Shown in pieces: positions 2,408 to 25,847 of a DNA stretch of 34,790 nucleotides (position 1 is the stretch's first letter; each line of letters starts with the position of its first letter). Origin of the DNA: Candidatus Thorarchaeota archaeon (GTDB lineage Archaea; Asgardarchaeota; Thorarchaeia; Thorarchaeales; Thorarchaeaceae); contig DAOVDG010000008.1 in assembly GCA_030669595.1 (NCBI GenBank), forward strand, positions 1-34,790, in the 5' to 3' direction. Below the pieces are notes generated by a model. It did no database searches, had not been told where the DNA came from, and worked only from the letters and a program-made list of their open reading frames with translations. Both the position numbers and the translations under genes were made by a program.

Positions 2408-2771
2408 TCGATTTCCTCCTTGTCCATTCAACAGGATCCCACCTAATCATCATGGCGTTCCAAGCTTCCGATGCCATCGACGGTCAGCAAGACCGAATTG
2501 TCAATCCTGAAGTTTCGCGTCCATTCCAGACGCTTGACTTCGAAGAGTCAATGCGAGTTTCGAACCTGACCTTTCTGAGTTCCTTGCGCATGATAGAAAT
2601 GTTGCGGTCTTCGTGGGGCATTCCTGCAAGGTCACTGTGTATCCATGAGATAGATTCGCACAAAGACAATTCATATGGTCAAAACAAATATAGCTCGTTG
2701 GCCTAGTTTCAACAATCCTGTGCATATGGTCCACCGAGCCAGAGTATGACGGGACGAAGGTCGGGGTCCAC

Positions 2772-5033: not shown

Positions 5034-5046
5034 AATAACCCAGCCA

Positions 5047-5691
5047 CTAACGAACCAGAAGATTCGAGCGTACTTGGTCTATCTGTTGCGAAGTCAGCCC
5101 CACCTCTTGCTGAAGGTATTCTGTGGCTCCGCCCATCCGTTGTATCTCAGCAAATAACTGTTTAATGTTTGTTGCTTTGGCCCCCGGCGAAAGCATGTAA
5201 TCTTGTACGATGGTGTCCTTGTTAAAGCCCATGACATCGAGAAGAAGAGCAGCAATCACGCCAGCCCTGTCACGTCCTGCAAAACAGTGGAAGAGAACGG
5301 GATAGCTCTCGCGAGCCTGTAAAATGCTGAATACCCGGGATATGCCCGTTCTGCATTCTTGGAAGATATGATGAAGTGGATTCATGTAGTCAGAATAGTC
5401 ATCATCGGGCCGCCTAACAGATGTGAACGAATCTAATGGCACGGACATGATTTCAAAACGCGAGAGCATGGCCTCGCTGTAGCAATGTTCACTCTTCTCT
5501 TCATCAGTGCGAAGGTCGATTATTGTTTTGACTCCATGAGCCTGCAGTATGCGAATCATCTCGGGCTCCTCTTGAAACAAAGGCAGAGCGGACCTGTAGA
5601 CAAGGCCCGGGCGAAGAGCAGGTCCCTTCACTTCCTCATAGTCAAGGGAGCGCATGTTGTATAGCAGGGAGTTATTGTTCATTGTTCTCAC
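5047..5691 (-). CDS. Tyrosine/dual-specificity phosphatase family protein (Y_phosphatase3-like)
   Basis: 'VLFHCFAGRDRAGVIAALLLDVMG' is an HCX5R P-loop; N-terminal 'MRSLDYEE...LRPGLVYRSALP' and 'TIIDLRTDEE' are typical of this family. Confidence 0.9.
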   Translation of the reverse strand: MRTMNNNSLLYNMRSLDYEEVKGPALRPGLVYRSALPLFQEEPEMIRILQAHGVKTIIDLRTDEEKSEHCYSEAMLSRFEIMSVPLDSFTSVRRPDDDYSDYMNPLHHIFQECRTGISRVFSILQARESYPVLFHCFAGRDRAGVIAALLLDVMGFNKDTIVQDYMLSPGAKATNIKQLFAEIQRMGGATEYLQQEVGLTSQQIDQVRSNLLVR

Positions 5692-5714
5692 CTCTTGGCG
5701 TGCCTGCAGGTTAA

Positions 5715-6575
5715 CTAACTGACAACTAGCTCAATTTCAGCATCACTCTTGGCTCCGATGCCAATCTCAACTGCATGAGCGATCTGAGGGAGTTCCCAGA
5801 CATTCCGGTCCAGTCGATTCTTAGCCCCGTAGCTCTGAAGAATCTTCACGCCCTCGACATCTATGGAAACCATATCTCCACTGGCGAGAATGAAACCAGA
5901 GCACTCCAACTGCCCACTCATGGGGCCACCTGTCACGAAGCACTTCCGGGCGTCCATGACTATTAGAGATGGCTGGAAGTACGAAGCTAGGTCAACTGCC
6001 TTCTGCTCAAGCCGTCGGGCGTGCATCCTAAGTCGATCCCTACGCCTTATCCAGCCTACAAAGAGTTTCATACTTGCAGTGAATCGCGCAAGCCGGTGTG
6101 TCTTGAGACATGGAGCCAGCACAAGCTTTCCAAGGTCAAGCAGTGGCTTCCCGATTGAGCCCGTCTTGAGGAACTTGCCACGGGGAAAGTCCACCTTCAC
6201 CCATTCATTCTCATCAAGGAATATCAGGTCTGCATCCAGGGCATCAGCTACTTCGTCAAGACCAATCTTTTTGGCTACTTCTCGCGTAGACACTCTCAGA
6301 GTTGAGCTGTCAATAATCCGAATCTTCTCGGCTCCGGCATCCAGAAGAAGCTCACCAAGAGCTTTGATGAACTCCGGATCACTTGATGCTGGATAAGGGT
6401 CAGCCGTGTTGAGATTCGGTTTGATGGTCACCGTATCACCTTCTTCGATGACTTTCTCAAAACCACCAATGAGTTCCACGGCTCGCTTGATATCACTCTT
6501 CAAGTCGCCACTAATGGAGGTCTTGCTCACTAGAAAGCGACCATCCTTGGTGTAGGGTTTCAACAATGGAAGCAT
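5715..6575 (-). CDS. DUF362 domain-containing protein
   Basis: 'GDTVTIKPNLN...PEFIKALGELLLDAGAEKIRIIDSS' and 'LVLAPCLKTHRLARFTASMKLFVGWI...LIVMDARKCFVTGGPMSG' are DUF362 signatures. No 4Fe-4S cysteine cluster seen. Confidence 0.82.
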   Translation of the reverse strand: MLPLLKPYTKDGRFLVSKTSISGDLKSDIKRAVELIGGFEKVIEEGDTVTIKPNLNTADPYPASSDPEFIKALGELLLDAGAEKIRIIDSSTLRVSTREVAKKIGLDEVADALDADLIFLDENEWVKVDFPRGKFLKTGSIGKPLLDLGKLVLAPCLKTHRLARFTASMKLFVGWIRRRDRLRMHARRLEQKAVDLASYFQPSLIVMDARKCFVTGGPMSGQLECSGFILASGDMVSIDVEGVKILQSYGAKNRLDRNVWELPQIAHAVEIGIGAKSDAEIELVVS

Positions 6576-6683
6576 TTAATCCCACTCAATACCATACATT
6601 GGCAGGTTAGCTATCATTAAGTTAGCTGATTGGGCACGAAAAAGCAGCCTATTGCTTATTCCGTTCTGGTAAATTCCCAAGAC

Positions 6684-6707
6684 CCACTGAACAGTAATCA
6701 ACAGTGG
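6684..6707. repeat. Hairpin CCACTG-N12-CAGTGG
   Basis: Perfect 6-bp inverted repeat directly upstream of the TnpB tail remnant. Confidence 0.5.
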
Positions 6708-6753
6708 AGTTTTTATACTCAAATGTGGATAAAAAGGGGTCGCCGCCAGTTAG

Positions 6754-6861
6754 ACGGAGACTCTAAACGCCTGTGGAGAGGATGTAAGACTCTGCAAATC
6801 AAAGATTTGCGAAGCAGCCTCGATGAATCAGGAACCGAACACCATTAGGAGGATGTCCTAG
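6754..6861 (+). pseudogene. Isolated C-terminal tail of an IS200/IS605-family TnpB (OrfB), probable element right-end remnant
   Basis: Frame reads (VAAS*)TETLNACGEDVRLCKSKICEAASMNQEPNTIRRMS*. The ETxNACGxxVR...EA(A/G)SxxQEP tail is characteristic of IS605 OrfB C-termini. In-frame TAG at 6751-6753; no RuvC or zinc-finger part nearby. Confidence 0.65.
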
Positions 6862-6969
6862 TTGGGTAAGTTTCGGGTAACGGTGTGACAGATGCCATAT
6901 TGAGGGAACGATGTCTTAACCATCAAATAGTCTTCCATGTAGGTGTTCACGCAGACACAGACGGGACTG

Positions 6970-7575
6970 CTAATCTTTCTGTTTCCGCTTTGGAATCAAG
7001 AATCCTACACGGTCCCTGTACTCCAAGTAAGGCTGCCCATATCTGATTACTAGGTCCCTCTCCTCTGCAAGGCAGAACACGTAGAATATGGGAAACCAGA
7101 GAAACGAGTACAGTATTAGAAACGGCGAATTGAGAAAGAAGGAAATGGCCAACCAGATGAAAGCCTCTCCAATGGCTTGGGGATGTCGAAGGGTTTCATA
7201 GATTCCGCTGGCCAATGTATGTTCCTTCTTGGGTTCAAGGCTTTCTTTGCCAGCATCCCTCAAACCCCTGAACATCAGAGTCAGCGAGGGGATGAGAATG
7301 ACGAATCCCATGACTACGGAAACCCAGTATTTCCATGGAAGGAGCCGCGGAAAATCATTAGAGAGCGGATAGAAGTAATAGATCAGATAGTTCACAATCG
7401 TCATGACTTCGAAAACAGATGCGATGATTCGGTACTGCTTGCACTTGGAGTACGCAGATTCACCAATCTCCTTCTCAAGAGCGGCAGGTCCGACGCTCTT
7501 GATATAGAAATGCGCCATTAGTACCGCTGACATTACCAGCACAATGAAATTGATCCAATCAATCATCGATGCCAT
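6970..7575 (-). CDS. Isoprenylcysteine carboxyl methyltransferase / phospholipid methyltransferase-like membrane protein
   Basis: 'GIYETLRHPQAIGEAFIWLAISFFL...AEERDLVIRYGQPYLEYRDRVGFLIPKRK' is the ICMT/PEMT RHP...EE...Y..Y...V...IP pattern. Confidence 0.85.
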   Translation of the reverse strand: MASMIDWINFIVLVMSAVLMAHFYIKSVGPAALEKEIGESAYSKCKQYRIIASVFEVMTIVNYLIYYFYPLSNDFPRLLPWKYWVSVVMGFVILIPSLTLMFRGLRDAGKESLEPKKEHTLASGIYETLRHPQAIGEAFIWLAISFFLNSPFLILYSFLWFPIFYVFCLAEERDLVIRYGQPYLEYRDRVGFLIPKRKQKD

Positions 7576-7645
7576 CTCAGAAGGAATTGCTCAATCACCA
7601 TTGGGGATGATTAGCTATTAAGTGACATGGGAAATGAAGTGTTAG

Positions 7646-8548
7646 TCACACGCCCAAAACAACGAGAATGACTCCCGCAATTGTAACTACAACGCCAATC
7701 ATCGCAACTCTCGTGATACGTTCCTTCAAGAAGACCATCGATATAGGCAGCGCGAAAAGTGGAGATAGAGAACCAATAACCGAGGTGACGGCGGCACCCA
7801 CGAATTTCACCGTGGAAACGTAGAGAAGTGAACCCAAACCCATTCCAAACAGTCCTGCAACAGCTATTATCTTGACAGTCCGTTGGGGAGGCGTCGGCAT
7901 CCCGCGATGCTTAGCAATGAGGAACATCGGGATGAATGCGGCTGACCCGAATGCCACTCTAACGAAATTGCCGTCGATAGGATTAACATTTTCAACTCCC
8001 ACTTGGAGGAGGATGGTTGCAAATGCATAGAGTACTGCAACCAGGAGAGCCAATCCTACTCCAACTTTGTCGAGCTTGCGCTTGACTGCGTGGTCTTCAT
8101 CTTGCCCCTGTTCCTTTGAAATGAGGATAACTCCTATTACAGCCAGGAGGATGCCAGCAGATCTGGATAACAGGGGTTCTTCAAAACCAACTGCAATGGC
8201 TAGAACATAGGTAAGGATTGGGAATGACATCGCAATTGGAAATGCATAGGATACACCGATTCTCTCTTGCGCCGAGAGATAGAAAGTGTCGCCTAGCACG
8301 GCACCGAAAATCACCGATACGACAAGGTATGCCAGCGCCTCCTGAGGAATGTAGAACGGCTCAGAACGAATGGGCAGAACAACCAGCACGGTCATGAAAG
8401 CCAATGCAACCCACATCTTGACCGAGCCTATTGCGAGAGGCCGAATGGAGTCGCTCTGTGACCTGTAGACAACAACGGACACCGCATAGATGGCTGATGA
8501 CAGTAGACCGGTTGCTATTCCAATCATCATCTCGGGGGTGAGTTGCAT
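7646..8548 (-). CDS. EamA/DMT-family transporter (about 10 TM, two EamA repeats)
   Basis: Repeat ends 'PILTYVLAIAVGFEEPLLSRSAGILLAVIGVILIS' and 'PLFALPISMVFLKERITRVAMIGVVVTIAGVILVVLG'. Confidence 0.9.
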   Translation of the reverse strand: MQLTPEMMIGIATGLLSSAIYAVSVVVYRSQSDSIRPLAIGSVKMWVALAFMTVLVVLPIRSEPFYIPQEALAYLVVSVIFGAVLGDTFYLSAQERIGVSYAFPIAMSFPILTYVLAIAVGFEEPLLSRSAGILLAVIGVILISKEQGQDEDHAVKRKLDKVGVGLALLVAVLYAFATILLQVGVENVNPIDGNFVRVAFGSAAFIPMFLIAKHRGMPTPPQRTVKIIAVAGLFGMGLGSLLYVSTVKFVGAAVTSVIGSLSPLFALPISMVFLKERITRVAMIGVVVTIAGVILVVLGV

Positions 8549-8591
8549 AGTAGAGATTCAGGCCGCTACTTGCACCTAAGATGTTATCGGA

Positions 8592-9668
8592 GTGGATGAT
8601 AAGCACAGGTTACCTTATTACAGTTCATCTGCATTTGTGAATGGGGGAAGAGTCGCATTGGAATCTGAAAGATTTCCAAAATTCGAAAAATCGCTTGAAC
8701 GCGAGCAAGGTTCAGTCTATGAGGAGGATCTGAGCGACATCTTGCTTATTTCTGGCGGCGGGGTTCTCGCTATTTGTATGGTCTATCTCGTGTTTGAGTT
8801 CATGTCAAAGTCCCCTTTTGTGGGATTGGCAGAGCTTGGAGCCCTATGTGGATTTGCCATCCTCACTTATGGCCTATACATTCGAAAAAGAGAGCATGAG
8901 AAATATCATTTTCGCGGTCTCAGTCGACGCATCAAGGATGGAAAGCGGCTTCTGCCGATTGCCTCAATGGTAGCAAACTTTCAGAAGCCAACCGAGAATC
9001 AACCATCTCTCCTAAATCATTCAGAGGTTGTGACCTTCTTCCACGAGTTCGGTCATCTAATGCATGCCATTACAAACAAAGCTAGCTACGCAAGATTCGG
9101 TCTAAGTGGAGTCTTGCGGGATTTTATCGAAGTTCCCTCACAGATGCTTGAGAATTGGGCGTGGAAGGAGGAGGTACTAACACTCCTGTCCGGGCATTTC
9201 GAAGATAACAAGAAGAAACTCCCATCAGAGATGTTGAAACGGATGATTAAGGCAAAACTGCTAGATATCGGTTCTTTTCAACTCAGACAGGTTTTCTACT
9301 CATTGATAGACCTCAAGTACCACACTGAAGGAGCTGAGGACACAACAGCGGAATATATCAAACTCTTCAGGGAAATCACTAGAATAGAGTTGCCTGACGA
9401 AACTACCCCCGATGCTGGCTTTGGACACGTAATGGGGGGCTATGCTGCGGCTTACTACAGCTATCTTTGGTCCAAAGTATACGCGGAGGATCTCTTCACG
9501 AAGTTCGAGAAAGCTGGATTCATGGATGAGAAAACAGGGCTCGAGTACCGTGAGAAGATTCTGGCGCCTGGTGGTAGCAAAGACCCTGATGAGATGGTAC
9601 GTGATTTCCTTGGACGCAAATCGAATAACGAAGCATTTCTGAGATCACTTGGTTTTGGCAAGAAGTGA
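8592..9668 (+). CDS. M3A-type metallopeptidase catalytic half fused to a short N-terminal membrane region
   Basis: 'IASMVANFQKPTENQPSLLNHSEVVTFFHEFGHLMHAI...RDFIEVPSQMLENWAW...FGHVMGGYAAAYYSYLWSKVYAEDLF...GLEYREKILAPGGSKDPDEMVRDFLGR' aligns to the C-terminal half of thimet oligopeptidase/Dcp-type peptidases. The first ~100 aa hold hydrophobic segments in place of the M3 N-terminal half. Confidence 0.85.
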   Translation: MDDKHRLPYYSSSAFVNGGRVALESERFPKFEKSLEREQGSVYEEDLSDILLISGGGVLAICMVYLVFEFMSKSPFVGLAELGALCGFAILTYGLYIRKREHEKYHFRGLSRRIKDGKRLLPIASMVANFQKPTENQPSLLNHSEVVTFFHEFGHLMHAITNKASYARFGLSGVLRDFIEVPSQMLENWAWKEEVLTLLSGHFEDNKKKLPSEMLKRMIKAKLLDIGSFQLRQVFYSLIDLKYHTEGAEDTTAEYIKLFREITRIELPDETTPDAGFGHVMGGYAAAYYSYLWSKVYAEDLFTKFEKAGFMDEKTGLEYREKILAPGGSKDPDEMVRDFLGRKSNNEAFLRSLGFGKK

Positions 9669-9787
9669 AGATGGCGACTAAATTGTCCGGTTTCTCGGGG
9701 GTGAAGCGCATTAGGGGAAGAACAAGAGATATGATTGTGGCAGGACCTTGTCCCTTCGCTCTGACATGTTGGTGGAGAAAGCCAAAT

Positions 9788-11128
9788 CTAGAGATTGAAA
9801 GCATCCGCAAGTGAGATGACCCTTCGTCTGAAGTCGGGATGGTCAATCATTAGCAGGTTCCGGCCAACTTCACTGTCAAACATCATCTTGCTAGGATTTT
9901 CGCGAAGCATGGCAAGCAGGTCAACAAGCTCGTCAGTTGAGAGCCTGCGGTCGCCGTCGGAGTCTGCCTTACGCCAGTCAACAACCATATTCTTGGGCCC
10001 TGTGCTGGATTCATCGTGAGTTTCCTTTTTCCTCTGTGCGAGAAGATTCTGCGCCGCAGGAGCTACGGCGTCCTTTATCTGTTGATTACTGATTTCTACA
10101 CCATAGACGTCGCGCATGTTGGTAAGGCGAGTTGTGAGAAAGACCCACGGAGCCATTTGCCTTGCATTTACTTCATCTATTGCGTCCAACGGATATGATA
10201 GAATCATCTGATTGAGCTCTGCATTGGTCAAGGGGTTCATCCGCTCTGGGTTCAATGACTCAAGCCAGCGTATCTCACTCACAAGGGCGGTCACTGCTTC
10301 AGCTCTCTGACCCAATCGAATGAGCCCATTAATGGTGGCTTCCGCTCCCAGAACTTCCGCCGCATGAAGGTCAGCAAGGAGCTCTGCTTCCCGGGATGCT
10401 CTCTGAGCGAAAATGATTGACCCTGACATTATCATCCTTGATGCGATAAAGAAAGCAATCAGGACGCCAAGACGAACTGCCGCCAGAAATAGATCGAAGT
10501 TCACCAGTAGAGAGCTAGCCACGCCAAGTCCGAGCCTCACATATACGTATAGATAGATTAGGTCAACGAAGATGGCGGGCATTCTCACAATGATAGAGAT
10601 TAGGGAGTCGGCATTTTTAACGTGTCCAAGCTCATGAGCGATGACAGACATGACCTCGCTTTGGCCAAGTACGTCCAAGAGGTTCGTGTGAATTACAATA
10701 ACGGTTCCGATGAGTGGTAGGCTGAAAGTGAAAGCATTCGGCAGAGGAGAACGCATAATGAAGACCCTGTCCACAGAGACCCCGCTCTTCTCTGCGAGCT
10801 CCTGAGTCCACTTGACAAGATCATCCCGTGAGTATTGACATCTCCATTTTGTGCTGGCGTCGAACGTGGGATAGAGCTCAACCATGCCTTCTTTTCGCAA
10901 CATGCTCATTGCAACGAGATAGATCATAACAGATTGCGCAAAGACGATTCCGATGAACAGAAGAACCGTGGTGAATGGATTTGAACCCCCAAGACCAATG
11001 CTAACTATTAGCGGAGTAGACTCGTCAAGAATCAGCAAAGACACAAAGGCAATCTGAACGACATCCAAAATAAGGAAAAGAGCAAACGAATTCCACTTCT
11101 TTCTGCTAATCGTTTCAGCCAGGCTCAT
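9788..11128 (-). CDS. M48-family (HtpX-like) membrane metalloprotease with C-terminal EF-hand
   Basis: 'VMSVIAHELGHVKNADSL' HExxH and 'SREAELLADLHAAEVLG' third-ligand motif; hydrophobic segments; C-terminal 'DSDGDRRLSTDE' EF-hand loop. The start at MSLAETISRKK follows AGGAG. Confidence 0.88.
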   Translation of the reverse strand: MSLAETISRKKWNSFALFLILDVVQIAFVSLLILDESTPLIVSIGLGGSNPFTTVLLFIGIVFAQSVMIYLVAMSMLRKEGMVELYPTFDASTKWRCQYSRDDLVKWTQELAEKSGVSVDRVFIMRSPLPNAFTFSLPLIGTVIVIHTNLLDVLGQSEVMSVIAHELGHVKNADSLISIIVRMPAIFVDLIYLYVYVRLGLGVASSLLVNFDLFLAAVRLGVLIAFFIASRMIMSGSIIFAQRASREAELLADLHAAEVLGAEATINGLIRLGQRAEAVTALVSEIRWLESLNPERMNPLTNAELNQMILSYPLDAIDEVNARQMAPWVFLTTRLTNMRDVYGVEISNQQIKDAVAPAAQNLLAQRKKETHDESSTGPKNMVVDWRKADSDGDRRLSTDELVDLLAMLRENPSKMMFDSEVGRNLLMIDHPDFRRRVISLADAFNL

Positions 11129-11323
11129 ATAATACACTCCTAGGAATAATATCGGCACTTGTCAGTCCATGAACGACACCGGACTCTATTTGAATCTTGA
11201 CAATGCTGCGAGTAGTCTTTCGGTTCTTTGGCAAATCAGTTAGCATTTGGCTCAATTGGCTGTATTATGAGGAGAACATAACATCTCAAGTTCTGTGTTT
11301 TCTATGAAAACAGGGGTAAATCG

Positions 11324-11788
11324 ATGAACATGAGATGTAGCACGTGCGGCTCAACAGAAGATACACATGTCGTGTATAACTCGCTGGTGAATGAAGCGGA
11401 ATGGCAATGCCGCTCCTGTGTCAGCAAACGTTTTCCTTCAGGCGCTCGCGTTGTCAAGTTCACTGACACTGCAAATCCGCACCATCCTACTTACTACATG
11501 AATGTGAAATCAAACGCAGATCTGGACCTCGTCATGAGTGTAAGTGAGCGGGCGCAGAAGATTGGAGCAAAGGGATTTCAAGCATGCTTCTACACGGCTC
11601 ACAATCAGGAGAGGCTCATTGGTCCTATGGCATTCCCGCTCGGGTATGCAGGCAACAATCGGCGACTGCGGAAACACGTTGATAAGCTGCGAATGTGGAT
11701 GGAAACTACAAGCATACTCCCGGGTCGAGATGAGTCTAAGAGCAACCTAGAAGACTCAACTCCGCTCTTTGCCCCAATCAACCTCTGA
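11324..11788 (+). CDS. Uncharacterised protein with N-terminal CxxC...CxxC zinc-ribbon-like motif
   Basis: 'MRCSTCGSTEDTHVVYNSLVNEAEWQCRSCVSKRF'; coherent ORF, no family recognised. Confidence 0.6.
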   Translation: MNMRCSTCGSTEDTHVVYNSLVNEAEWQCRSCVSKRFPSGARVVKFTDTANPHHPTYYMNVKSNADLDLVMSVSERAQKIGAKGFQACFYTAHNQERLIGPMAFPLGYAGNNRRLRKHVDKLRMWMETTSILPGRDESKSNLEDSTPLFAPINL

Positions 11789-12332
11789 AGAATGCGAGTT
11801 TCGAGTGCTAGAAATCGCCCTCTTCCTGAGGAGTCTTCTTGACACTCGATTCAAGCGTACTCGTCCAGTTGAGTTCTCTCTCCCCACTCTCTTTATCCTC
11901 CTATCTCTCCCCCCACGAGAGCCTGACGTAGAACCGTGGCATGACATGGAAGGCTTGAAGCACCTAGACAACACGGCTTGCCCCTTGAGTATCCTTATCA
12001 GCCAGTACCGTGTGAGGTAATCTAAGCCCCACAGAGGGACCCTAGATACTACTCGACGCCCCCTTGCGAAGTCAGGCTGCGTCTCAATGATATTGCGATA
12101 CTCCTCTCAGCCCCGTCGAACAACCCCCTCCTCTGAAAGCTGAGTCCCTCGCCGAACAATAGTCCAAGTTCGCATCAGATGGGATCTTTCAGTCTGTCAT
12201 CTATTCTTCTCCTTCACTGCGATTGGTGGACATGGCATTCATGCAGCTAGACTCAGGAAGGGTCTTACGCGCACACGGATGCAAGGGGCCAACTACCATG
12301 CCAATGTCCGGGTCATAGTTGAGTACAACGCG

Positions 12333-12968
12333 CTAGTCTTCTGCGGTTTCTGCGAGATCTTGTTTCTCTTTCGCGGCCCCTACGACCACCTCTTTAGAAC
12401 TGGACTGAGCCGGCTTGGATTCCGGAGCTGCTGCATCCTTGTCCCACCGCTGCTTTCGTTCTTCCATTTGTTGCCACGGTGTGGTGATCTCCGGCGGTGG
12501 CCTAAGCTTCATAATCACAAGTCCTGTCAAGAAGAGGACTGGGATTGGTCCGAACAGCGGGACCAAGATCTGACCGGGGTCAGGACTGGAAGCCAACTGC
12601 CCTATCATCCCAAGATATGCCACTACTAGAATCTGAAGCTCGGATGCAACACCTACAAGGAGTGTATTCAGCTTCGTCGTCCTCCCATTGTAGTATCTGA
12701 CCATTTGATAGGCGAACACTGGTCGAAGGGAAAAAAAGAGTAGGCCGGCCGTCAACATGGGAAGTTGAACCATGACAATATGTATGGCGTGGTCCCAATA
12801 GGATGCCTCCCAAGTCATGGCCATAAGTTGCCAATTGAAGCCGTACTCGAAACCGGGATATACTGTAAAGGCAGCAGGTCCAAGCAAAGCCACGAAGGTC
12901 ATTATAAATATAATACCTCTCGGACGCGATGTGTCTTGATTGACTTGTGCTGTATCACTCTCTTCCAC
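12333..12968 (-). CDS. Uncharacterised multi-TM membrane protein
   Basis: Four or five hydrophobic segments and a charged C-terminal tail. An upstream minus-strand TTTAAA TATA-like element lies at about 13014-13020. Confidence 0.7.
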   Translation of the reverse strand: MEESDTAQVNQDTSRPRGIIFIMTFVALLGPAAFTVYPGFEYGFNWQLMAMTWEASYWDHAIHIVMVQLPMLTAGLLFFSLRPVFAYQMVRYYNGRTTKLNTLLVGVASELQILVVAYLGMIGQLASSPDPGQILVPLFGPIPVLFLTGLVIMKLRPPPEITTPWQQMEERKQRWDKDAAAPESKPAQSSSKEVVVGAAKEKQDLAETAED

Positions 12969-13059
12969 GGATTAATGCACCTCCATCACTTCTGACATTA
13001 GCTCTGTATGCGATTTTAAATAGCTTGATTTGGCTCAGGGCTTTGTTGTGCTATTCGTC

Positions 13060-13729
13060 CTATGGCAGGTAGTACACTATCCTGCTGACTGTCAAGGAAG
13101 CCGGCTCATCGTGATCGGTGCGAGCTGTCGCCATGTAATAAGGTCCACGTCTGATAACCGTGACTTTAAGTGCGACCTTAAAAACGTAGGCGTTTCCATT
13201 TGCTAGATCCACTGAGAAGCGTTTCTCTATGCTCCTGGTGATTACATATTCTTCATTGACCCATCCCGACGTAGTGTACACACCCGCTGACCATGCGTAC
13301 TTTTCCTGAAGTAGCTTGCCTGCTGAATTGTAGACCTGATAGATAACTCCTATCTCGATCTCTGCTGGGTGCCACCAAAAGTCCGCTCCAGCACATATCC
13401 GATAATCAAGGGTCCAGGTAGAAGAAATGCACCAAGAAGCCGTGACAGACTGAGTCATCATCTCATCAGACCCCACCCACGCACGACCATAGGCCCCAGC
13501 GCTGTAAGGGAGAAAAACAAATTTATCTACCGCTTTTACTGTACACACGCCCGAGGACTTGGAAGCAGATACTGTGATGCCAGCATCGGTGCTTGTTGTG
13601 CCTTGGTAGTCATACGGGGGGATATAGTGCGCCGCCGAACGCGGCCGCTACAGGCGCCACTTCGAATGACGCGAAGATGAGGGCCAGAAGCACTAGTCCC
13701 ATCGCGTATTGTCTTGTTTCGATTTTCAT
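13060..13729 (-). pseudogene. Predicted secreted protein split by a +1 frameshift at a C6 tract
   Basis: Minus-strand ATG at 13729 follows AAGGAG and encodes MKIETRQYAMGLVLLALIFASFEVAPVAAAFGGALYPPV* (signal peptide). The downstream frame reads ...PPYDYQGTTSTDAGITVSASKSSGVCTVKAVDKFVFLPYSAGAYGRAW... (ORF 13060-13548). Removing one C from the tract at 13616-13621 joins the two. Confidence 0.7.
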
Positions 13730-13943
13730 CTATTTCTCATCTCCTTGACATAGTTTCATGCCTTCTAGCTCTAACTTCTATACAAGAGAATCAACGGAGG
13801 GACGAAACTCAGTCTGCTTCACCCCCCATGAGACTCACCGCTACTCAATCGAGGCCCTTTGTTGGAAACCGGACATAATACCCAGATATTACCTTAACAT
13901 CTGGCCATCATTATGGCACTAAGCACTGCACATCCGTGTAAGG

Positions 13944-14633
13944 ATGGCATTCATCACAGCTGACAAGACCTTCGACGAGATTGTGAATACATGTGTCTCC
14001 GAGTTAGACAAATCGCTCTACAGTGGCCTTGAGGTTGCTACGATGCATCTCTTCTACAGCTCCAGGCTCCTCCGCGACGGCCTGCTCAGGTTCCCAGTCC
14101 AATGCTAGCTCCCCAAAGAGGAAGGCGGCCTTAAGGGCCGGTGCATCATGATCGACAGCAACAGCGTCCTCAGGACCGACAGGCTCACTGATATCGCCTT
14201 CGAGCTGGGCATCGAGCCGGAGGCTGCCATGCACAACATCTTCATCTCGCGTGTCTTCAACCACTCTCAGACCTACGACCTCGTGATGACCAAGCTGGAC
14301 TCCTTCTTTGGATGCATCCCTGCAAGGCTTCTTCTCCTTCCTGGTTTTGCTGATATCTACTATCGAGAGGGGGTTGACGCTAAGGGGAAACAACACCTGA
14401 CTCACATGGCACACGGGCTCATAACCTTCTCCCTTAAGCATGAAATAACCACCATCATCGAGGGGAGTTTATCACCCAAGTTCAAGAGGTGATCTGCTGC
14501 CAGTCATGCCATCAAGCATAGTGCACAGGTCCATGCATATGTGAAGGAACCCCCTAAACGGACCATCTACCATCTCATGAAACACCCTCAGCTACCTCCA
14601 AAAAGGTCGGATACAATTTCCAGTTGCATCTGA
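13944..14633 (+). pseudogene. Degenerate RadA/Rad51-like recombinase reading frame with two in-frame stops
   Basis: One frame reads MAFITADKTFDEIVNTCVSELDKSLYSGLEVATMHLFYSSRLLRDGLLRFPVQC*LPKEEGGLKGRCIMIDSNSVLRTDRLTDIAFELGIEPEAAMHNIFISRVFNHSQTYDLVMTKLDSFFG...HEITTIIEGSLSPKFKR*SAASHAIKHSAQVHAYVKEPPKRTIYHLMKHPQLPPKRSDTISSCI*. It is colinear with archaeal RadA (FITADE..., LDKLLGGGIET, VQLPPEEGGLxGxxIxIDTExTFRPERIxxIA, HSATxRxYLRKxKxxKRIARLIDxPHLPEGEA). TAG at 14106-14108, TGA at 14490-14492. Confidence 0.82.
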
Positions 14634-14682
14634 TGGTTCGTCTCATTCTGAACTTCCAGATTTCGTTTCGGAAGATGAAGAG

Positions 14683-14700
14683 TGAGCCCCGGAGGGCTCA
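14683..14700 (-). terminator. Hairpin just downstream of the 14709-15221 gene
   Basis: TGAGCCC-CGGA-GGGCTCA perfect 7-bp stem with a 4-nt loop, followed on the minus strand by a pyrimidine-rich stretch. Confidence 0.45.
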
Positions 14701-14708
14701 AAGCTGTA

Positions 14709-15221
14709 TTAGAAATCCCCTAGTTCCTCAGGAGTTTTTTGGACTCCGGTACATACTGAGGAGTATTCAAGAAGTTTCCATTGTCCACTCGAGTTCTTGC
14801 GCACCTGCAAAGGCGTCGGGTTTGATTTCCCACCACTCTGAATGAATATCTTCATTCCCTTTCCATGGTCCTGTTTCTTAACCACAGTCATGGTCAGAGA
14901 GCTCTTACTGAACTTGTATCCATTCTCAGGAGTGCCACCAACATAGGAGCGTGCAATGTTCCTATTCTTCTTGAACTGTCCAACAAAATACTTCGCACTT
15001 CTACCAAGCTTCAGTCCAGAAGGGGACCCTCCTTTTTTGAGACAGTCCTTCTTTGACACAATCACGGTCATCATCGCATCAGCCAAATCGGGATCTTTCT
15101 CAATGTTGAGTGCTGCGATAAGATAGTACATGATGGTGTTCTCGGGTTTTCCTGCATCCTTCTCCCATTCAGATTCGAACTTGGAAAATGATGTTATGAT
15201 CTTCTTGGTGACCTTGGCCAT
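14709..15221 (-). CDS. Uncharacterised protein (possibly DUF6935-like)
   Basis: Coherent 170-aa ORF 'MAKVTKKIITSFSKFESEWEKDAGKPENTIMYYLIAALNIEKDPDLADAMMTVIVSKKDCLKKGG...'. The family link is a weak recollection only. Confidence 0.7.
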   Translation of the reverse strand: MAKVTKKIITSFSKFESEWEKDAGKPENTIMYYLIAALNIEKDPDLADAMMTVIVSKKDCLKKGGSPSGLKLGRSAKYFVGQFKKNRNIARSYVGGTPENGYKFSKSSLTMTVVKKQDHGKGMKIFIQSGGKSNPTPLQVRKNSSGQWKLLEYSSVCTGVQKTPEELGDF

Positions 15222-15371
15222 ATCAAATCACTCCGCTTTCTATCGCATCGGTACACAAAAAGATTGGGTGGCCAGATGCCGCTATTGCTTCTTGGGCGCA
15301 CTCACTCTTGTATCATCCGCATACTTTATTTTGCCACTAAAGGAGTGCCAATAGCTAACTGGTGGCAACGC

Positions 15372-16802
15372 ATGACCGATGGAAAAGACATCGCAGAGTA
15401 CTGTGTGGAACTTGGACGTGAGCTTGGCGCGAAATATGTTGAAGCGCGTTATGAAAATGAACGGGCCAGAGGATTGGCTTACAGGAACGGAGAACCGATC
15501 TCAGGTGGGACGACACCATCCGTGGGGATAGGGGTCCGACTTCTTGTTGATGGAAACATGGGCTTTGCGTCTTTTGACAGAATGGACCGTGAGATTGCTA
15601 GAGATGCGATTCAGGTTGCGCTCAAGATGGCAAGGAATGCTCAGAGGGAAGAGCACATAGAATTGGGCGAACCCGTGGCCAACAAGGCCAAGTGGACCAC
15701 GGATGTCAAGGAGCCGCTTTCGGACGTGGACATTGATACGTTGATGGACACAGCCAAAGAGCTGAACGCTCAGATGAAAGACCTAGCCCAGTTCGTTCTC
15801 GTGATGAACCCTACTGTTATCGACAAGTACATCGTAACCAGCGAGGGGGCTGAGATCACTGGACATATCTCCTACATTAAACTGTTGACGGTGCTCACTG
15901 CAAAGGGGAAGGTAGGCTCCGAACAGAAATTTCTGGATATGACACAGTCTGGTGGCTGGGAGCGCATAAAGGAGGCCAAGGTCAATGAAACCCTTGGCGA
16001 CGAGGTACGAGAACTCCAGAAGGCTGCACTCACAGCGAAGAAAGTTCCCGAGCTGATGGAACGCCCAATTGACATGATAGTCGGACCCGAGGTGGCAGGG
16101 ATTATTGCGCACGAAAACGTTGGTCACCCAAGCGAGGGCGACAGAATCATGGGCCGCGAGGGAGCTCAGGCCGGTGAGAGTTTCTGGAGAGACCTCAAGA
16201 TAGGCGATTCAAGAGTTGGGAGCGATGCAGTGACAGTCAGCGAAGATCCTACCATACCCAACACAGGAGGATTCTATCTCTATGATGATGAGGGAGTCAA
16301 GGCAAGGAAGAGAGTCCTGATCAAGAACGGCATTCTGAATGAACCCCTCCTCAATAGGGAGTTTGGTGTCAAGTTTGGAACTGGTTCGAATGGTGCCGCT
16401 AGAGCCTCAAGTTATGATCGAGAGCCCATTATCAGAATGGCAAACACCTACTTTGAACCTGGTGACCATTCGCTCGAAGAATTAATTGAGGATGTTAAGC
16501 TGGGGGTTCTAAAAAAATCGTTTACGGAATGGAATATTGACGATAGGCGCTACCAATCAAAGTACACGGGATGCGTTGCGTATCTGATAAAGAATGGTGA
16601 ACTGACAGACACGATGGTAAGAAGGCCAGTGATGGAAACCACGAGCGTTGGCCTGCTAAGCGCGGTCGATGCAGTCTCGAATAACCTTAGATTTGACTTC
16701 CCAGGCACCTGTGGGAAGAGTGACCCGATGCAGGGAGTACCTGTGTACGCAGGAGGCGGAGAGGTAAGATTCCGTGCTATTCGTCTTGGAGGTGTTGGGT
16801 AA
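15372..16802 (+). CDS. tldD: TldD-family metalloprotease subunit
   Basis: 'IIAHENVGHPSEGDRIMGREG' (HExxxH-type motif), 'VSEDPTIPNTGGFYLYDDEGVKARKRVLIKNGIL', 'FGGGEVRFRAIRLGGVG'-like C-terminus. Start chosen at MTDGKDIAEY. Confidence 0.93.
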   Translation: MTDGKDIAEYCVELGRELGAKYVEARYENERARGLAYRNGEPISGGTTPSVGIGVRLLVDGNMGFASFDRMDREIARDAIQVALKMARNAQREEHIELGEPVANKAKWTTDVKEPLSDVDIDTLMDTAKELNAQMKDLAQFVLVMNPTVIDKYIVTSEGAEITGHISYIKLLTVLTAKGKVGSEQKFLDMTQSGGWERIKEAKVNETLGDEVRELQKAALTAKKVPELMERPIDMIVGPEVAGIIAHENVGHPSEGDRIMGREGAQAGESFWRDLKIGDSRVGSDAVTVSEDPTIPNTGGFYLYDDEGVKARKRVLIKNGILNEPLLNREFGVKFGTGSNGAARASSYDREPIIRMANTYFEPGDHSLEELIEDVKLGVLKKSFTEWNIDDRRYQSKYTGCVAYLIKNGELTDTMVRRPVMETTSVGLLSAVDAVSNNLRFDFPGTCGKSDPMQGVPVYAGGGEVRFRAIRLGGVG

Positions 16803-18181
16803 TGACTAGTCTCGATGATCTCAAGTCCTACGTGGACCTAGCTGTTGACCATGCAAAGGGGAAAGCCGACGGAGCAATCGCGAGGGGAGTGCTATCCAGC
16901 AATTCCCAGATCAGATTCTCGCAGAATGCCATAGACATCAACAAGCGCTGGGAGAGCCTCTCACTGCAGCTCTTCCTGATTGTGGAAGAAGCAAAGACAG
17001 GATTCAGCGAGAGGTCAGTGTCAAGCGCGGAGGATGTCAAGAAAGCAGTGGATGACACCATTGCATTCACAAAGCGTCTTCCGGAGTCGCAATTCTTCGC
17101 AGGTGTCGAAGAGAAAGTTTACGAATACGAGGCGATTTCCGGCACATTCGACAGCAAAATCGATGACTTCGGTGAGAAGGCTCCAGGTGTGGTCAACGCA
17201 GCCATTGATGTTGCTCGCACACAAGGAGCCAAGCGAGTCGCGGGCGCTCTCAAGTTTGGGAAGGAGTTCCAGTTCTTCAGATCGAGCTACGGTCCTGAAG
17301 GCTCAACACGAAGCACATCATTCGACCTAAATGTCAGGGCATTCATGGACGAGTTGGACCATTCAGGGCAAGGTCTCGAGTGTGGGTCCAAGCCGTCACA
17401 AGCGTTGAACGGCATGATTGAAGCTGGCGCACAAGCAGGTAGACTGGCCAAACAAGCGGTGGGTGCCAAGCAAGGCGAGGCCGGAACCTATGACCTTGTC
17501 ATGAATCCGACCGTAGCCGCAAATGTACTGGGCTTCATGGTTGAATCAGCTAACCCATTCATGGTGATGATTGGCATATCACCACTCGGAGACAAGATGG
17601 GACAGCAGATGGGACCAGAGTTTGTTACAGTTGCCGACGATCCAAGAATGGCGGGAGGCCTAGCAAGCAAGCCATTTGACGCGGAAGGCACTCCAACTAG
17701 GGCAATCAATATCTATGAGAAAGGCGTGCTCAAGTCATTCCTCCATAATACGAGTACTGCTAGGATGTTTGAAACTGAATCCACAGGTAGTTCCGATCTT
17801 GTGGGACTTGGACAGGGTTTGAAAATGCTACTTCCTAACACCTCGAATATTGTGTTCGAGAATGGGGACCGCTCATGCGAGGAGCTATTGGAGGGGGACA
17901 AGCCAACCATCTATGTCACGTCGAACTGGTACACAAGGTTCACCAACTACCAGACCGGAGAGTTCTCGACAATTCCGCGTGATGCGATGTTCCTCGTAAG
18001 GAAAGGAGAGATGAAGCCAATCAAGAACGTGAGGATTAGCGACAGCATGCTGAGAATGTTTGCGAACATCACTGCATTTGGCAATGACCGCAGACAGGTC
18101 TACTGGTGGGAGGTTGAAACGCCCACATTCATTCCTTCGGTGAGGATTGCAGACTGTAGGATAACAGCGGCAACTCAGTGA
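16802..18181 (+). CDS. tldE: TldE/PmbA-family protein
   Basis: Directly follows tldD with overlapping stop/start. 'YDLVMNPTVAANVLGFMVESANPFMVMIGISPLGDKMGQQM', 'DDPRMAGGLASKPFDAEGTPTRAINIYEKGVLKSFLHNTSTARMF'. Confidence 0.92.
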   Translation: MTSLDDLKSYVDLAVDHAKGKADGAIARGVLSSNSQIRFSQNAIDINKRWESLSLQLFLIVEEAKTGFSERSVSSAEDVKKAVDDTIAFTKRLPESQFFAGVEEKVYEYEAISGTFDSKIDDFGEKAPGVVNAAIDVARTQGAKRVAGALKFGKEFQFFRSSYGPEGSTRSTSFDLNVRAFMDELDHSGQGLECGSKPSQALNGMIEAGAQAGRLAKQAVGAKQGEAGTYDLVMNPTVAANVLGFMVESANPFMVMIGISPLGDKMGQQMGPEFVTVADDPRMAGGLASKPFDAEGTPTRAINIYEKGVLKSFLHNTSTARMFETESTGSSDLVGLGQGLKMLLPNTSNIVFENGDRSCEELLEGDKPTIYVTSNWYTRFTNYQTGEFSTIPRDAMFLVRKGEMKPIKNVRISDSMLRMFANITAFGNDRRQVYWWEVETPTFIPSVRIADCRITAATQ

Positions 18182-18220
18182 GTAACGGATGCAGAAGAGT
18201 CTCGATGTCAGAGAGAAAGA

Positions 18221-18829
18221 CTAGACGCTGCTCTGCTCAGCCATGTTGCTCTTGATCCTGGCTCTGCACGACGATGCCGCGTGGATGAAGATTTCAGCGA
18301 CATTCATTCCGGTCTTCGCGCTGGCTTCAAAGTACTTCATGGATAGCAGATCGGCCAATTGGCGACCCTCTTCTTTCGTCACTTCAGTGGCATCCGTCAT
18401 GTCAACCTTGTTTGCAACCAAGGATCCAGCCAAGAAGATGTAGCTTGGCATTCTGATGCCATCGGTTAGGGTTTCATACCACTTTGGAATGTTTTCGAAG
18501 GTAGACCGGTCAGTTTTGTCGTATACTAGGATGACGTGGTGAGCACCCTGATAGAATCTGTTTCTAAGCGCAGCGAATGTCTGCTGACCGCCAAGATCAA
18601 CCACACTAAGCACAATCGTGCCTTCAGGGAAGTCGAAAGTGGCTACGCTGAGGTCAGCGCCCACCGTAGCAGTGTAGGTGGTTTCGAAGCGACCCAGAAG
18701 ATATCTTCGAACAAGAGACGTTTTCCCTACATTGCGTGAGCCAACTATAAGTGTCTTGTAAACCTCGGCAGTCAGCGCGTGCACCATCCTTATGCCTAGG
18801 TTAGCATCCCCAAGTTCGCTTATCAGCAT
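18221..18829 (-). CDS. Ras/Arf-like small GTPase
   Basis: G1 'GSRNVGKTSL', switch-I T in 'TYTATVGADL', G3 'VVDLGGQQTF', G4 'ANKVDM', G5 'EASAKTG'. Start chosen at MLISELGD; MVHALTAEVYK at 18787 is an alternative. Confidence 0.92.
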   Translation of the reverse strand: MLISELGDANLGIRMVHALTAEVYKTLIVGSRNVGKTSLVRRYLLGRFETTYTATVGADLSVATFDFPEGTIVLSVVDLGGQQTFAALRNRFYQGAHHVILVYDKTDRSTFENIPKWYETLTDGIRMPSYIFLAGSLVANKVDMTDATEVTKEEGRQLADLLSMKYFEASAKTGMNVAEIFIHAASSCRARIKSNMAEQSSV

Positions 18830-18935
18830 TCTTATGGCATCTAGGGTCAATGCATTAGATGACACTTCCGAGAGATACAAAAGGAAACACTGTGCAAAAG
18901 CGCTTGAACAGTGTGCCATTGTGAAGTTGATTGTC

Positions 18936-19415
18936 ATGGTCGACCTCAATGAAATCCGGACCAGAACCGTCACGTGCAGAGAATACCTGGAGAGTCTCAA
19001 GGGCGAATCGAAAGATGAGCAGATGCAGACATACAGCAACTACAAACTGAATGAGCAAGCAATGAAAGAGCTGAAAAGCCTCGTGAAAGGCATGAGTGTC
19101 GTTGCGCTGGGCGCAAGCTGGTGCAAGGACTGCCGAGCGGCAATACCAGTTTTATTGCATTTGGAAGAGAAGCTTGGTCTGGATGTCCGCGTATTCGGAA
19201 CGATGAAGGTTGCAGCGCTGGATCCTGACCACCAGTGGCGAATCCCACCATCACCGCCTGAGGCTGAGGACTGGGGTGTTAAGGCAATCCCCTGGATTGA
19301 GATCTTCGACGAGAATGGCGAAAGAATCGACACAATAATAGAGAAACCTGACTTCACTCCCACGCTCGAGGAGGAATTCGTATTTCTGCTGAAAAGGGCG
19401 AGTGGGAGAACATAA
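18936..19415 (+). CDS. Thioredoxin-fold protein with CxxC motif
   Basis: 'MSVVALGASWCKDCRAAIPVLLHLEEKLG...WGVKAIPWIEIFDENGERI': thioredoxin-like active site CKDC and a downstream cis-Pro-like 'IPW'. Confidence 0.85.
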   Translation: MVDLNEIRTRTVTCREYLESLKGESKDEQMQTYSNYKLNEQAMKELKSLVKGMSVVALGASWCKDCRAAIPVLLHLEEKLGLDVRVFGTMKVAALDPDHQWRIPPSPPEAEDWGVKAIPWIEIFDENGERIDTIIEKPDFTPTLEEEFVFLLKRASGRT

Positions 19416-19458
19416 AAGAGAGAATTGTTCTAGCTCGAATAGTGCAGGAGGTAGTCGA

Positions 19459-20730
19459 ATGGAAATTCCTATGATAACCAAGTTTGTAAATGGACTAAAG
19501 ATGTTCTGGGCGTCAAAGAAACTCCGATGGCTCACGATTGTCTTTGTGTTGGGCTTAGTGATGACCACGGCGTTGCAGCAACTGACGCTTTACATGCCAA
19601 GTGCGTGGGCATTTGCAACACTGGTGTCAGCAGCATTCCCAATGTTCTTTCTCTTAACTGCGATACTGTCACTTTTTGGACTGCAACGATTCGTCGCTAG
19701 CGAGGAGTCATATCGCTCGTCCGCAGTGATGTTCATCATATGGATATTTGTCAGCATTATACTTCAGGTATACTTCGTATTCAACTTGTTCGCTGTGTTT
19801 GTGATTGTATACTTCGGAATCGCGTTCTTGGGCTGGATTTCATTCCAAGCATACTTCTCAACAAGGACAAGCTTAGGCTATGCAGAAAAAGCTGATGTCA
19901 GGGAGAACTCCAGACTAATGAAGGTCCTAGTCACAATGAGCCATATCTTCTGCTACGTGGTGATCTTCGGCGCTCTCGTGTATGTCTTGTCAATAAACCT
20001 CACTGAACTCTCAGGCAACTTGCCAAGGCTGCTCCTGCTCGTGTTAGGAACTTCGGTGGCGGCATTCTTCAACTTCTTCAATGGGATGATTCTGGGCCGC
20101 CAGCGCGAAAAGACAACCTTCGTCAATGTTGCATTGATTGGGCTTTTCATCTCCCTTTATTCTGGTTACTTCATATACAACGCAGGGAAGACTACCTCGC
20201 TTGGCTTCGATATAGTCAGTTTTGCAATTACCATATTCTTTGTGTTCTACACAATGAGCTCTGTAGGATCTACTTTAGCCTCAAGATCTGAAAAGGAAAC
20301 AAGATGGAAAATATCAAAGGAACTGGCTGTGACTCTCACATTCTTCCTTGCTTCTGGCTACTACTTTGCAGACACAATACTACCGATACTACCCACGGTT
20401 GACTCGGTGTTGGGAGCGGCCATGGGCGACTTGGCAAAGCTCTTCATCTTTCCGTTGGTGGCTCTCGTGATGGAGTTGTTGTTCATCAGACGTGCCGGGA
20501 AGGTTCTCAAGCCGGCGGTAGAATTGCCACCTGAAGAAGAGCCCATTCCGACTGAGGAGGAAGCCGAAGCTTCGGCAGAACCAATCGTGGAAAAGGCTGC
20601 AGAAGACGAGGAAACCAAACCTTCCAAAGAACCAGTTGTGGAAGAGGTCACAGAAGTCGAGGAGCCCGATGTCGAAGAAGAGGAACCCTCCGACTTGGAA
20701 GAAGATCTTTGGGAAGAGGAGGACCAATAG
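19459..20730 (+). CDS. Multi-TM membrane protein with long acidic C-terminal tail
   Basis: Many hydrophobic segments followed by about 70 residues very rich in Glu ('PPEEEPIPTEEEAEASAEP...EEEEPSDLEEDLWEEEDQ'). Start MEIPMITK after GCAGGAGG. Confidence 0.75.
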   Translation: MEIPMITKFVNGLKMFWASKKLRWLTIVFVLGLVMTTALQQLTLYMPSAWAFATLVSAAFPMFFLLTAILSLFGLQRFVASEESYRSSAVMFIIWIFVSIILQVYFVFNLFAVFVIVYFGIAFLGWISFQAYFSTRTSLGYAEKADVRENSRLMKVLVTMSHIFCYVVIFGALVYVLSINLTELSGNLPRLLLLVLGTSVAAFFNFFNGMILGRQREKTTFVNVALIGLFISLYSGYFIYNAGKTTSLGFDIVSFAITIFFVFYTMSSVGSTLASRSEKETRWKISKELAVTLTFFLASGYYFADTILPILPTVDSVLGAAMGDLAKLFIFPLVALVMELLFIRRAGKVLKPAVELPPEEEPIPTEEEAEASAEPIVEKAAEDEETKPSKEPVVEEVTEVEEPDVEEEEPSDLEEDLWEEEDQ

Positions 20731-20821
20731 CGGCTTCACACGCCCAAACCGTCGCAACTGAACGCTTTTATCACCTCGACCCAGAAACGAAGAAATGCAC
20801 ATAAGGTCATTACGACATTGA

Positions 20822-21019
20822 ATGAGCGATACTCAATTGAAACCGGAGAATGCTAAAATGGCACGATGGGAATGTCTAGTTTGTGGTTGGGTTTACGACG
20901 AAGACAAAGGCGATGAGGACAGCGGAATTGCAGCGGGCACGAAATTCGAAGACCTGCCTGATGATTGGGTCTGCCCGATGTGTGGCGCTTCCAAAGAAGA
21001 TTTCGAGAAGCTAGAGTGA
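20822..21019 (+). CDS. Rubredoxin
   Basis: '[49 protein letters not shown]': two CxxC(G) knuckles, classic rubredoxin. Confidence 0.97.
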
Positions 21020-21025
21020 AGATTC

Positions 21026-21046
21026 TCGGGGGTATTCAGCCCCCGA
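21026..21046 (+). terminator. Probable rho-independent-like hairpin after rubredoxin
   Basis: TCGGGGG-TATTCAG-CCCCCGA perfect 7-bp stem 7 nt after the stop codon, followed by ATTCACTTTCTT. Confidence 0.55.
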
Positions 21047-21074
21047 ATTCACTTTCTTATCCGTGAACAGCGAT

Positions 21075-21305
21075 TCAGTATGGTCGCTCGTTCTCGATAA
21101 GACTCTCAGTGAACGATGGACACATCGGTCTATCTTTCTTATGCCTCCAGTATACAGCCCATTCATCTACCTCGCCCTTTTTCACGACAACCTGTCTGTC
21201 TTGGCTCAAATCACTCGCAAGCCGAATCGCCTCTCTGAGGGTCATGGAGGCGCATTCGAGTCTGAAGACCTGGCCCCTGATAAGCAGCCACTTCTCCGCT
21301 CTCAT
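21075..21305 (-). CDS. Small uncharacterised protein
   Basis: 76-aa ORF with protein-like composition (MTLREAIRLASDLSQDRQVVVKKGEVDEWAVYWRHK); competing plus-strand ORFs look less protein-like. Weak evidence. Confidence 0.45.
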   Translation of the reverse strand: MRAEKWLLIRGQVFRLECASMTLREAIRLASDLSQDRQVVVKKGEVDEWAVYWRHKKDRPMCPSFTESLIENERPY

Positions 21306-21387
21306 AACAGTAAATCTTGATGAAGTCTAATAACCTCCACCTGAGCACCGACATTCAATCACAGAGATTCTTAAAGGGCGCACTTAG

Positions 21388-21951
21388 TTGATGAGAAGGT
21401 TGGAGAACAGAGAGATGAAACTCCTAGACCGTATCAAGAAACTGACAACCCTGAGATTTTTCCTGCTGTTCCTCGTTCTGACGATAGTTGTAGCCGTGGC
21501 GATGGGATACATCAATTCCCAGATACTGACACTGTCCGGAGGCTTGCCGGTCCTGGATATCAGACCGGGTTACACCTTTCCTGAAGTCGAACATCTCTTC
21601 ACTGTGCTTGGCGAGCACGGTAGACGATTGTACACCATGCTACAGGTTCTTGACCTAGTCTTTCCGTTGGTCTATGGCATGAGCGTGACAATGGCACTGA
21701 CTGGTGTCATCACAAGAGTGCTTCCTGAAGGGCACCCACTGGAGACAGCAGTTTTCATACCCATTCTTGGCATGATCTTCGACTACCTAGAGAATATCAC
21801 GATTGCAACACTGATTGCGTCATACCCGAATCTCTCGCCGTTGGCTGTCAGCATTGCCAGCATCTTCACTCAACTGAAGTGGTCGTGCATAATTCTGGCA
21901 TTGGCTCTGCTAGTTATTCTAGCGATACTTGCGTTGGGTAGGAAGAAGTGA
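21388..21951 (+). CDS. Uncharacterised membrane protein (about 4 TM)
   Basis: Hydrophobic segments near the N-terminus, middle and C-terminus, 'GMIFDYLENITIATLIASYPNLSPLAV'. TATA-like TTCTTAAAGG upstream. Confidence 0.7.
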   Translation: MMRRLENREMKLLDRIKKLTTLRFFLLFLVLTIVVAVAMGYINSQILTLSGGLPVLDIRPGYTFPEVEHLFTVLGEHGRRLYTMLQVLDLVFPLVYGMSVTMALTGVITRVLPEGHPLETAVFIPILGMIFDYLENITIATLIASYPNLSPLAVSIASIFTQLKWSCIILALALLVILAILALGRKK

Positions 21952-21966
21952 ACATTACCGTCACGC

Positions 21967-22275
21967 TTATGAGGCGAACTCACTTGCTTCGAACAGGCTG
22001 ATTGTGCCTTTCAAGTCCTCGCGCTCTGAGCGAATGTTATTACTCTTGACGATCAATTTTAGCAGTAACCTCTGATAGAGTGGCTCTGAGATTTGTCCTC
22101 TGTCCTTCGTTTCATCAAGCTCGAATCTCTTGCGACGGATGTCATTGAAGGCCTTTCCAAGTGCAGCATGTCGTATTCTCATGAGTCTGATGCTAGTGCC
22201 TTCAGTGGCTTTTGGGCAGTTCAAAGTCAATGTTTCATATCTCCTAACAGAAGTAGTAATAACAGTGCATATCAT
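21967..22275 (-). CDS. Small charged uncharacterised protein
   Basis: ORF with helix-rich 'MRIRHAALGKAFNDIRRKRFELDETKDRGQISEPLYQRLLLKLIVKSNNIRSEREDLKGTISLFEASEF'. The real start may be the internal Met at 22182. Confidence 0.45.
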   Translation of the reverse strand: MICTVITTSVRRYETLTLNCPKATEGTSIRLMRIRHAALGKAFNDIRRKRFELDETKDRGQISEPLYQRLLLKLIVKSNNIRSEREDLKGTISLFEASEFAS

Positions 22276-22286
22276 AAAGTATTCGC

Positions 22287-22295
22287 TTATATATA
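22287..22295 (+). promoter_or_regulatory. TATA-box-like element upstream of the DUF4139 pair
   Basis: TTATATATA at 22287-22295, in the intergenic gap upstream of the tandem genes. Confidence 0.45.
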
Positions 22296-22361
22296 CTCCT
22301 ATTCATTAGCAAACGAACAATATCGACCGCAATCGCTGTTAAGCCGGGACATTAGAACTAG

Positions 22362-24008: not shown

Positions 24009-24019
24009 GGTGAGAGAAC

Positions 24020-25615: not shown

Positions 25616-25777
25616 ACAGCTTTCCTTTTTGTAGCCCCTCAGATTTGGCTATGCGTATATGGCAAGCCACATACAAGATGAGGTTCCAAAAGAGTCGGCA
25701 ATGTAGTAACTGGCTCAATAACAACATCGTCACTTGTCGAACCAACGTCGCTGTCACGATGTCTTTTGTGGGACTAC

Positions 25778-25784
25778 TTATATA
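25778..25784 (+). promoter_or_regulatory. TATA-box-like element for the ABC transporter operon
   Basis: ACTTATATAG about 65-70 nt upstream of the TTG start at 25848. Confidence 0.45.
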
Positions 25785-25847
25785 GTGCATAAGCGGTCTT
25801 TATTGCACACACACAATTATTTGTGCTGCGTGAAAGGAGGATTCCTC

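Follow-up and report, generated by a model that had tools for sequence, protein, structure and literature searches.

A probable orphan iRadA pseudogene in a lineage-specific segment of a Thorarchaeal genome, and iRadA genes located apart from PPB2-PolB2 in Thorarchaeia

The closest described counterpart of the genes considered here is iRadA of the archaeal and bacterial PolB2 (Dpo2) mutasome, which is encoded in a PolB2-iRadA-PPB2 operon (Makarova et al. 2014, PMC4104785; Timinskas et al. 2025, PMC11791011). It has neither the N-terminal domain of RadA nor its ATPase residues, and often carries a clamp-binding tail (PMC11791011). In Sulfolobus islandicus, targeted mutagenesis requires PolB2 (cited in PMC11791011). 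The 2025 description was made in silico and its text does not mention Asgards; in the published models, PolB2 would dock on iRadA as RadA protomers dock on each other, with PPB2 joining the complex. Canonical RadA, Rad51, and DMC1 share fold and sequence homology with the Thorarchaeal proteins described below, but the latter have neither Walker A nor Walker B, lack the helix-hairpin-helix (HhH) domain, and form a separate clade. RadB is also a core-only relative of RadA, but it keeps the P-loop, and the iRadA family scores far below the cut-offs of the NCBIfam RadB models. Bacterial ImuA and the eukaryotic RAD51 paralogues are likewise accessory proteins of RecA/RAD51 descent, and ImuA, too, is connected with translesion synthesis. 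On the iRadA family, however, the ImuA model reaches only E = 0.013 (far below cut-off). We found no specific relationship of the family to ImuA or to RAD51 paralogues: RAD51C/XRCC3 chains are among the profile matches, and the recombinases themselves match best.

We analyzed a stretch of 34,790 nucleotides (the window; contig DAOVDG010000008.1 of assembly GCA_030669595.1, Candidatus Thorarchaeota archaeon), in which a forward-strand frame at 13944..14633 is very probably the pseudogene of an extra (“orphan”) copy of a mutasome-type iRadA, located in a lineage-specific 2.9-kb segment. A preliminary description, made from the letters alone, had reported a full-length RadA/Rad51-like frame with two in-frame stops and lost catalytic motifs. 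The frame does translate as reported, and both stops are present (TAG at 14106..14108 and TGA at 14490..14492, both on the forward strand); a third, at 14631-14633, closes it. When the stop-masked translation was compared with RadA, as had been proposed, matches far above chance were obtained (Pfam Rad51, 8.7e-14, 51.8 bits against a cut-off of 22; P. furiosus RadA, 7.7e-13, aligned over nearly its full length). The longest ATG-started piece between the two stops (forward strand, 14148..14492, 114 aa) has a weak Rad51 match of its own (Pfam, 8e-06). “Full-length” holds for nearly all of the RadA core, but the frame stops before the conserved C-terminal tail of its own family. It has no N-terminal HhH domain and, like its relatives, begins at the linker.

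Open frames related to 13944-14633, mostly of 243-290 aa, occur in most genomes of the family. These intact Thorarchaeal proteins (∼250 aa, beginning just before the core, with no N-terminal helical domain) share 37-56% identity with the frame; the gene at L057:9001-9768 is one example. A profile (A1) built on 28 of them has matches in 40 of the 47 genomes of the class, and in 12 of the 13 best genomes. Nearly all named copies belong to Candidatus Thorarchaeota, with one labelled Lokiarchaeota and two only “archaeon.” Walker A (GxxxxGKT) is missing from the frame and from every intact relative. Intact members have YG[DS]RxLxDDLL across the P-loop stretch, LLIVxGLPDLY at Walker B, and IDSxN in place of IDTE. 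Thus, the four motif readings in the window (SSRLLRDG, SLYSG, IDSN, and LLLLPGF) were all correct, but three of them, all except SLYSG, are near normal for intact members; for these, the missing catalytic motifs are a family trait of iRadA, and the only sign of decay among the four is SLYSG, where the family has LLGGG. The earlier argument that set frame integrity against catalytic loss falls away, because the same motifs are missing in the intact relatives. An AF2 model of iRadA (pLDDT 87, pTM 0.81) has a RAD51-like fold, and the closest solved folds are those of RAD51/RadA. One iRadA copy (L082:8194-9042) carries an LPLEYFV motif plus a second, very PIP-like end, ELTLFDFFE.

When the whole phylum was searched, RadA-like frames of shorter length turned up in several further Asgard families. 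Of the 20 such loci fetched, one encodes a RadA with a P-loop, and the product of the other 19 is P-loop-less. Around these 19, a family-B-type polymerase occurs at 11 loci (770-870 aa in most cases, with some truncated at contig ends) and a ∼90-aa protein bearing GRTxPxFR close to its N-terminus at 14; they are mostly adjacent. One polymerase was scanned and matched Pfam DNA_pol_B (3.3e-29), and motif C, both in the consensus and in the Thorarchaeal members, reads V-D instead of DxD. This gene cluster is the PolB2-iRadA-PPB2 operon of PMC4104785 and PMC11791011. Because the Asgard relatives sit in such operons, we identify the protein family as iRadA and the motif loss as a trait of that family. 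An initial idea, that the family was undescribed, was abandoned when we came across the PolB2 operon and the papers on it. Among Asgard archaea the PolB2 mutasome is widespread, several families having iRadA-PPB2-PolB2 operons, and in surveys of Asgard RadA paralogues the loss of Walker motifs should not be taken as decay.

In Thorarchaeia, the arrangement is different. Nearly all Thorarchaeal genomes have both PPB2 and PolB2, usually adjacent (in the genome studied here, on contig G000:C101), but iRadA does not share an operon with them, either in the class or in the window, whereas it does in other Asgards. In two genomes that consist of a single contig (G025 and G027), about 1 Mb separates iRadA from PolB2. 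Most Thorarchaeal iRadA genes lie at one of two conserved loci. Group I copies neighbor a GCV_H gene, a ∼2990-aa convergent gene, and an AAA gene that we read as Orc1/Cdc6-like (Pfam sees AAA only); group II copies neighbor an aminotransferase and a 552-aa zinc-ribbon protein. There are also a few orphan copies. The convergent ∼2990-aa protein (L052:9888-18767 and orthologues) is conserved, and no Pfam match was found in the 205-aa stretch of it that was scanned. Extra PPB2-like genes, besides the PolB2-linked one, were seen in two genomes (G006:C28 and C19; G005:C288 and C377).

Two short motifs recur in the Thorarchaeal proteins. An FxxA just before the core occurs in 46 of 46 Thorarchaeal members but in only 1 of 19 from other Asgards, although the pattern is crude and picks up 16 of 23 canonical RadAs. 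In P. furiosus RadA, its aligned counterpart is the segment preceding the core, which holds the RadA oligomerization motif. A C-terminal tail with the spacing of a PIP box is found in 42 of 44 Thorarchaeal proteins (4.0 expected from shuffling), in 18 of 19 iRadAs of other Asgards (1.7 expected), and in none of 23 canonical RadAs. The Gln of the PIP box is mostly Thr or Asn in these tails and is kept in two (QTSLDHFW and QRNLNFWL); the C-terminal end of Thorarchaeal FEN1 reads QS[AST]L[ST]D[FY]F. Overall, the family agrees with the described iRadA (PMC4104785; PMC11791011) in its RadA/Rad51 core without the N-terminal domain and its missing ATPase residues, and other-Asgard members share the PPB2-PolB2 operon as well. 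The PIP-spaced tail, mostly lacking the Gln, may correspond to the clamp-binding motif that a fraction of known mutasomes carry in iRadA or PolB2. The Thorarchaeal genes differ in not adjoining PPB2-PolB2, in having several copies, and in the FxxA before the core, and the window copy differs further by its decay. The location of Thorarchaeal iRadA apart from PPB2-PolB2, at two conserved loci plus orphan sites and with FxxA, appears to be new.

The stops and a few other damaged positions of the window copy, which is seen in one genome, are very probably decay. The TAG takes the place of a Gln: 45 of the 46 intact relatives have Gln in this column, and the remaining one has a gap. The TGA falls on a variable column where relatives have no Cys, so it is not a selenocysteine site. 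Of 19 near-invariant family residues, five are lost in the frame (three Gly, one Asn, and one Ala) and none in L075, L081, or L082. The window copy has 29 private amino acid changes compared with 10 in L081 (two outgroups; Tajima p=0.002), an imbalance that other pairs of orphan copies do not show. A plain codon-position test for neutral decay was uninformative because third positions are saturated, and the private-change counts were used instead; the codon-position excess in the window copy (p=0.08) is suggestive only. The PCNA-box-like tail is not within the frame. A tail-like LPDFVSEDEE does occur downstream, in the +1 frame, but as a relic of the PIP tail after a frameshift it was rejected as not clearly above chance: equal scores are reached by 41 of 1000 shuffles and by 36 of 1045 ends of other ORFs. 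The closest orphan copies are divergent too; L093 has also lost residues and the tail, and relaxation of orphan copies may have preceded the stops. Short iRadA fragments (matches of about 35-45 aa or 49-78 bp) on G006:C22, C42, and C51 (L101, L102, and L100) are further signs of orphan copies coming and going.

The frame lies in a ∼2.9-kb segment (11847..14709) that is missing at the syntenic site in the congener G006 (contig C3). In blastn against that contig, window positions 1-11845 and 14710-32787 align at 88-91% to adjoining stretches of C3 that lie about 36 bp apart. Imperfect 38-bp repeats, 28 of 38 positions identical by eye, flank the segment: the right one (14710..14747) is the 3′ end of the present DUF6935 gene, and the left one (11809..11846) resembles that 3′ end. 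They favor an insertion or duplication-type event here rather than a deletion in G006. Besides the frame, the segment carries two small reverse-strand ORFs (12333..12968, membrane-protein-like, and 13060..13548), neither with a Pfam match or a counterpart among the fetched loci; at megablast sensitivity, the segment had no plasmid match. There is a second replaced stretch at 8594-9739 of the window, of 1.1 kb here, with an M3 peptidase-like gene, compared with 3.3 kb in G006:C3. Tandem DUF4140-DUF4139 genes at 22362-24008 and 24020-25615, 11 bp apart, are probably a tandem duplication.

Several other origins for the frame must be weighed. One is a second, decaying radA of the canonical catalytic kind, and the frame is indeed RadA-like across nearly the full core. 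Yet identity to RadA of the same genome is 27% (6e-15), compared with up to 56% to the P-loop-less relatives, and residues of the P-loop-less family are present, such as SQTYDLVM and RLLLLPGFADIY. In a quick tree, all P-loop-less proteins separate from canonical RadA (SH-aLRT 98), the frame among them as sister to L081 (96), a long-branch placement that is itself unsure. Identity and tree together rule out a canonical radA pseudogene for practical purposes. The preliminary description had offered a decaying extra radA copy or a divergent non-catalytic paralogue whose two halves are translated separately, and each proposal contributes a part: the frame is a decaying extra copy and appears to derive from a non-catalytic paralogue (iRadA), not from radA. 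Apart from the 114-aa ATG-started piece, nothing supports the halves, given a TAG at a Gln site and conserved residues lost outside the stops. A living gene might also use recoded stops (TAG as pyrrolysine, TGA as selenocysteine), and recoding is known in some Asgards (PMC9723677). However, Thorarchaeia have no Pyl cluster (PMC9723677), TAG and TGA are ordinary stops in the window (10 and 11 of 24 genes), and in the relatives the TAG column holds Gln and the TGA column a variety of residues. We reject recoding on these grounds, and regard a living gene of either kind, recoded or split, as highly improbable. Somewhat less improbable, but still quite unlikely, is a living iRadA gene in which assembly or sequencing errors created the stops: the MAG does show signs of two strains (radA contigs that are 91.6% identical), but the stops are base substitutions, not frameshifts, five near-invariant residues are lost besides them, the frame closes before the conserved tail, the lineage is accelerated, and the flanking genes are open.

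A less easily settled question is which living family the dead copy came from. The iRadA reading draws on homology, on the motif loss seen throughout the family, on the operons of other Asgards, and on the PPB2 and PolB2 of this genome, to which the observed decay and lineage-specific location of the window copy are added. What speaks against the assignment is that operon linkage, which is part of the published description, is absent in Thorarchaeia. The copy could instead derive from a living, PolB2-independent family of Thorarchaeal RadA regulators that are not mutasome subunits; the distance of iRadA genes from PPB2-PolB2 and the contrast in FxxA between Thorarchaeal and operon-type Asgard iRadA are in its favor. 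Against it stand the co-occurrence of PPB2 and PolB2 in nearly all Thorarchaeal genomes, the retained PIP-like tail, and the loop before “DRGG” in Thorarchaeal PolB2, which is kept and which, by its position in the sequence, we equate with the modelled iRadA-docking loop of PMC11791011. We consider this origin doubtful. Under the preferred mutasome-type iRadA reading, the intact protein would be a RadA/Rad51-fold subunit without ATP turnover, and its PIP-like C-terminal tail could tether the iRadA complex to PCNA for translesion synthesis. Thorarchaeia, this genome included, have retained the PPB2-PolB2 pair, and iRadA would be encoded in trans; the decayed window copy could no longer produce the protein. 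We infer this biochemical role for Thorarchaeal iRadA, as well as PolB2 joining in trans and binding to PCNA or RadA. More speculatively, Thorarchaeal iRadA may stand alone, freed from the operon, duplicated to two loci, and equipped with FxxA, so that it could attach to RadA filaments or cap them, and link them to PCNA. If so, this relative of eukaryotes would have a non-catalytic regulator resembling the RAD51 paralogues, and the window would hold a dead extra copy of it. Whether RadA filaments, PCNA, and an error-prone polymerase are linked by an inactive recombinase in such relatives of eukaryotes can be tested.

Other genes of the RadA type were also seen. The intact radA whose presence elsewhere the preliminary description proposed to check was found, on both G000:C92 (L001) and G000:C118 (L002); the surrounding 3.7 kb are 91.6% identical, and the two contigs probably represent two strains or species in one bin. 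Origin of the frame from this radA at the DNA level was rejected, as blastn gave no alignment between them. Flanks of the group I iRadA locus were not found in this MAG, which is 85% complete, in a search that had no positive control. A separate P-loop protein of this genome (L003) is RadB/KaiC-like. Finally, a second Thorarchaeial P-loop RadA paralogue of about 360 aa (L161, L162, and L163), with GPSRGGKT or GPAKAGKT, is distinct from canonical RadA.
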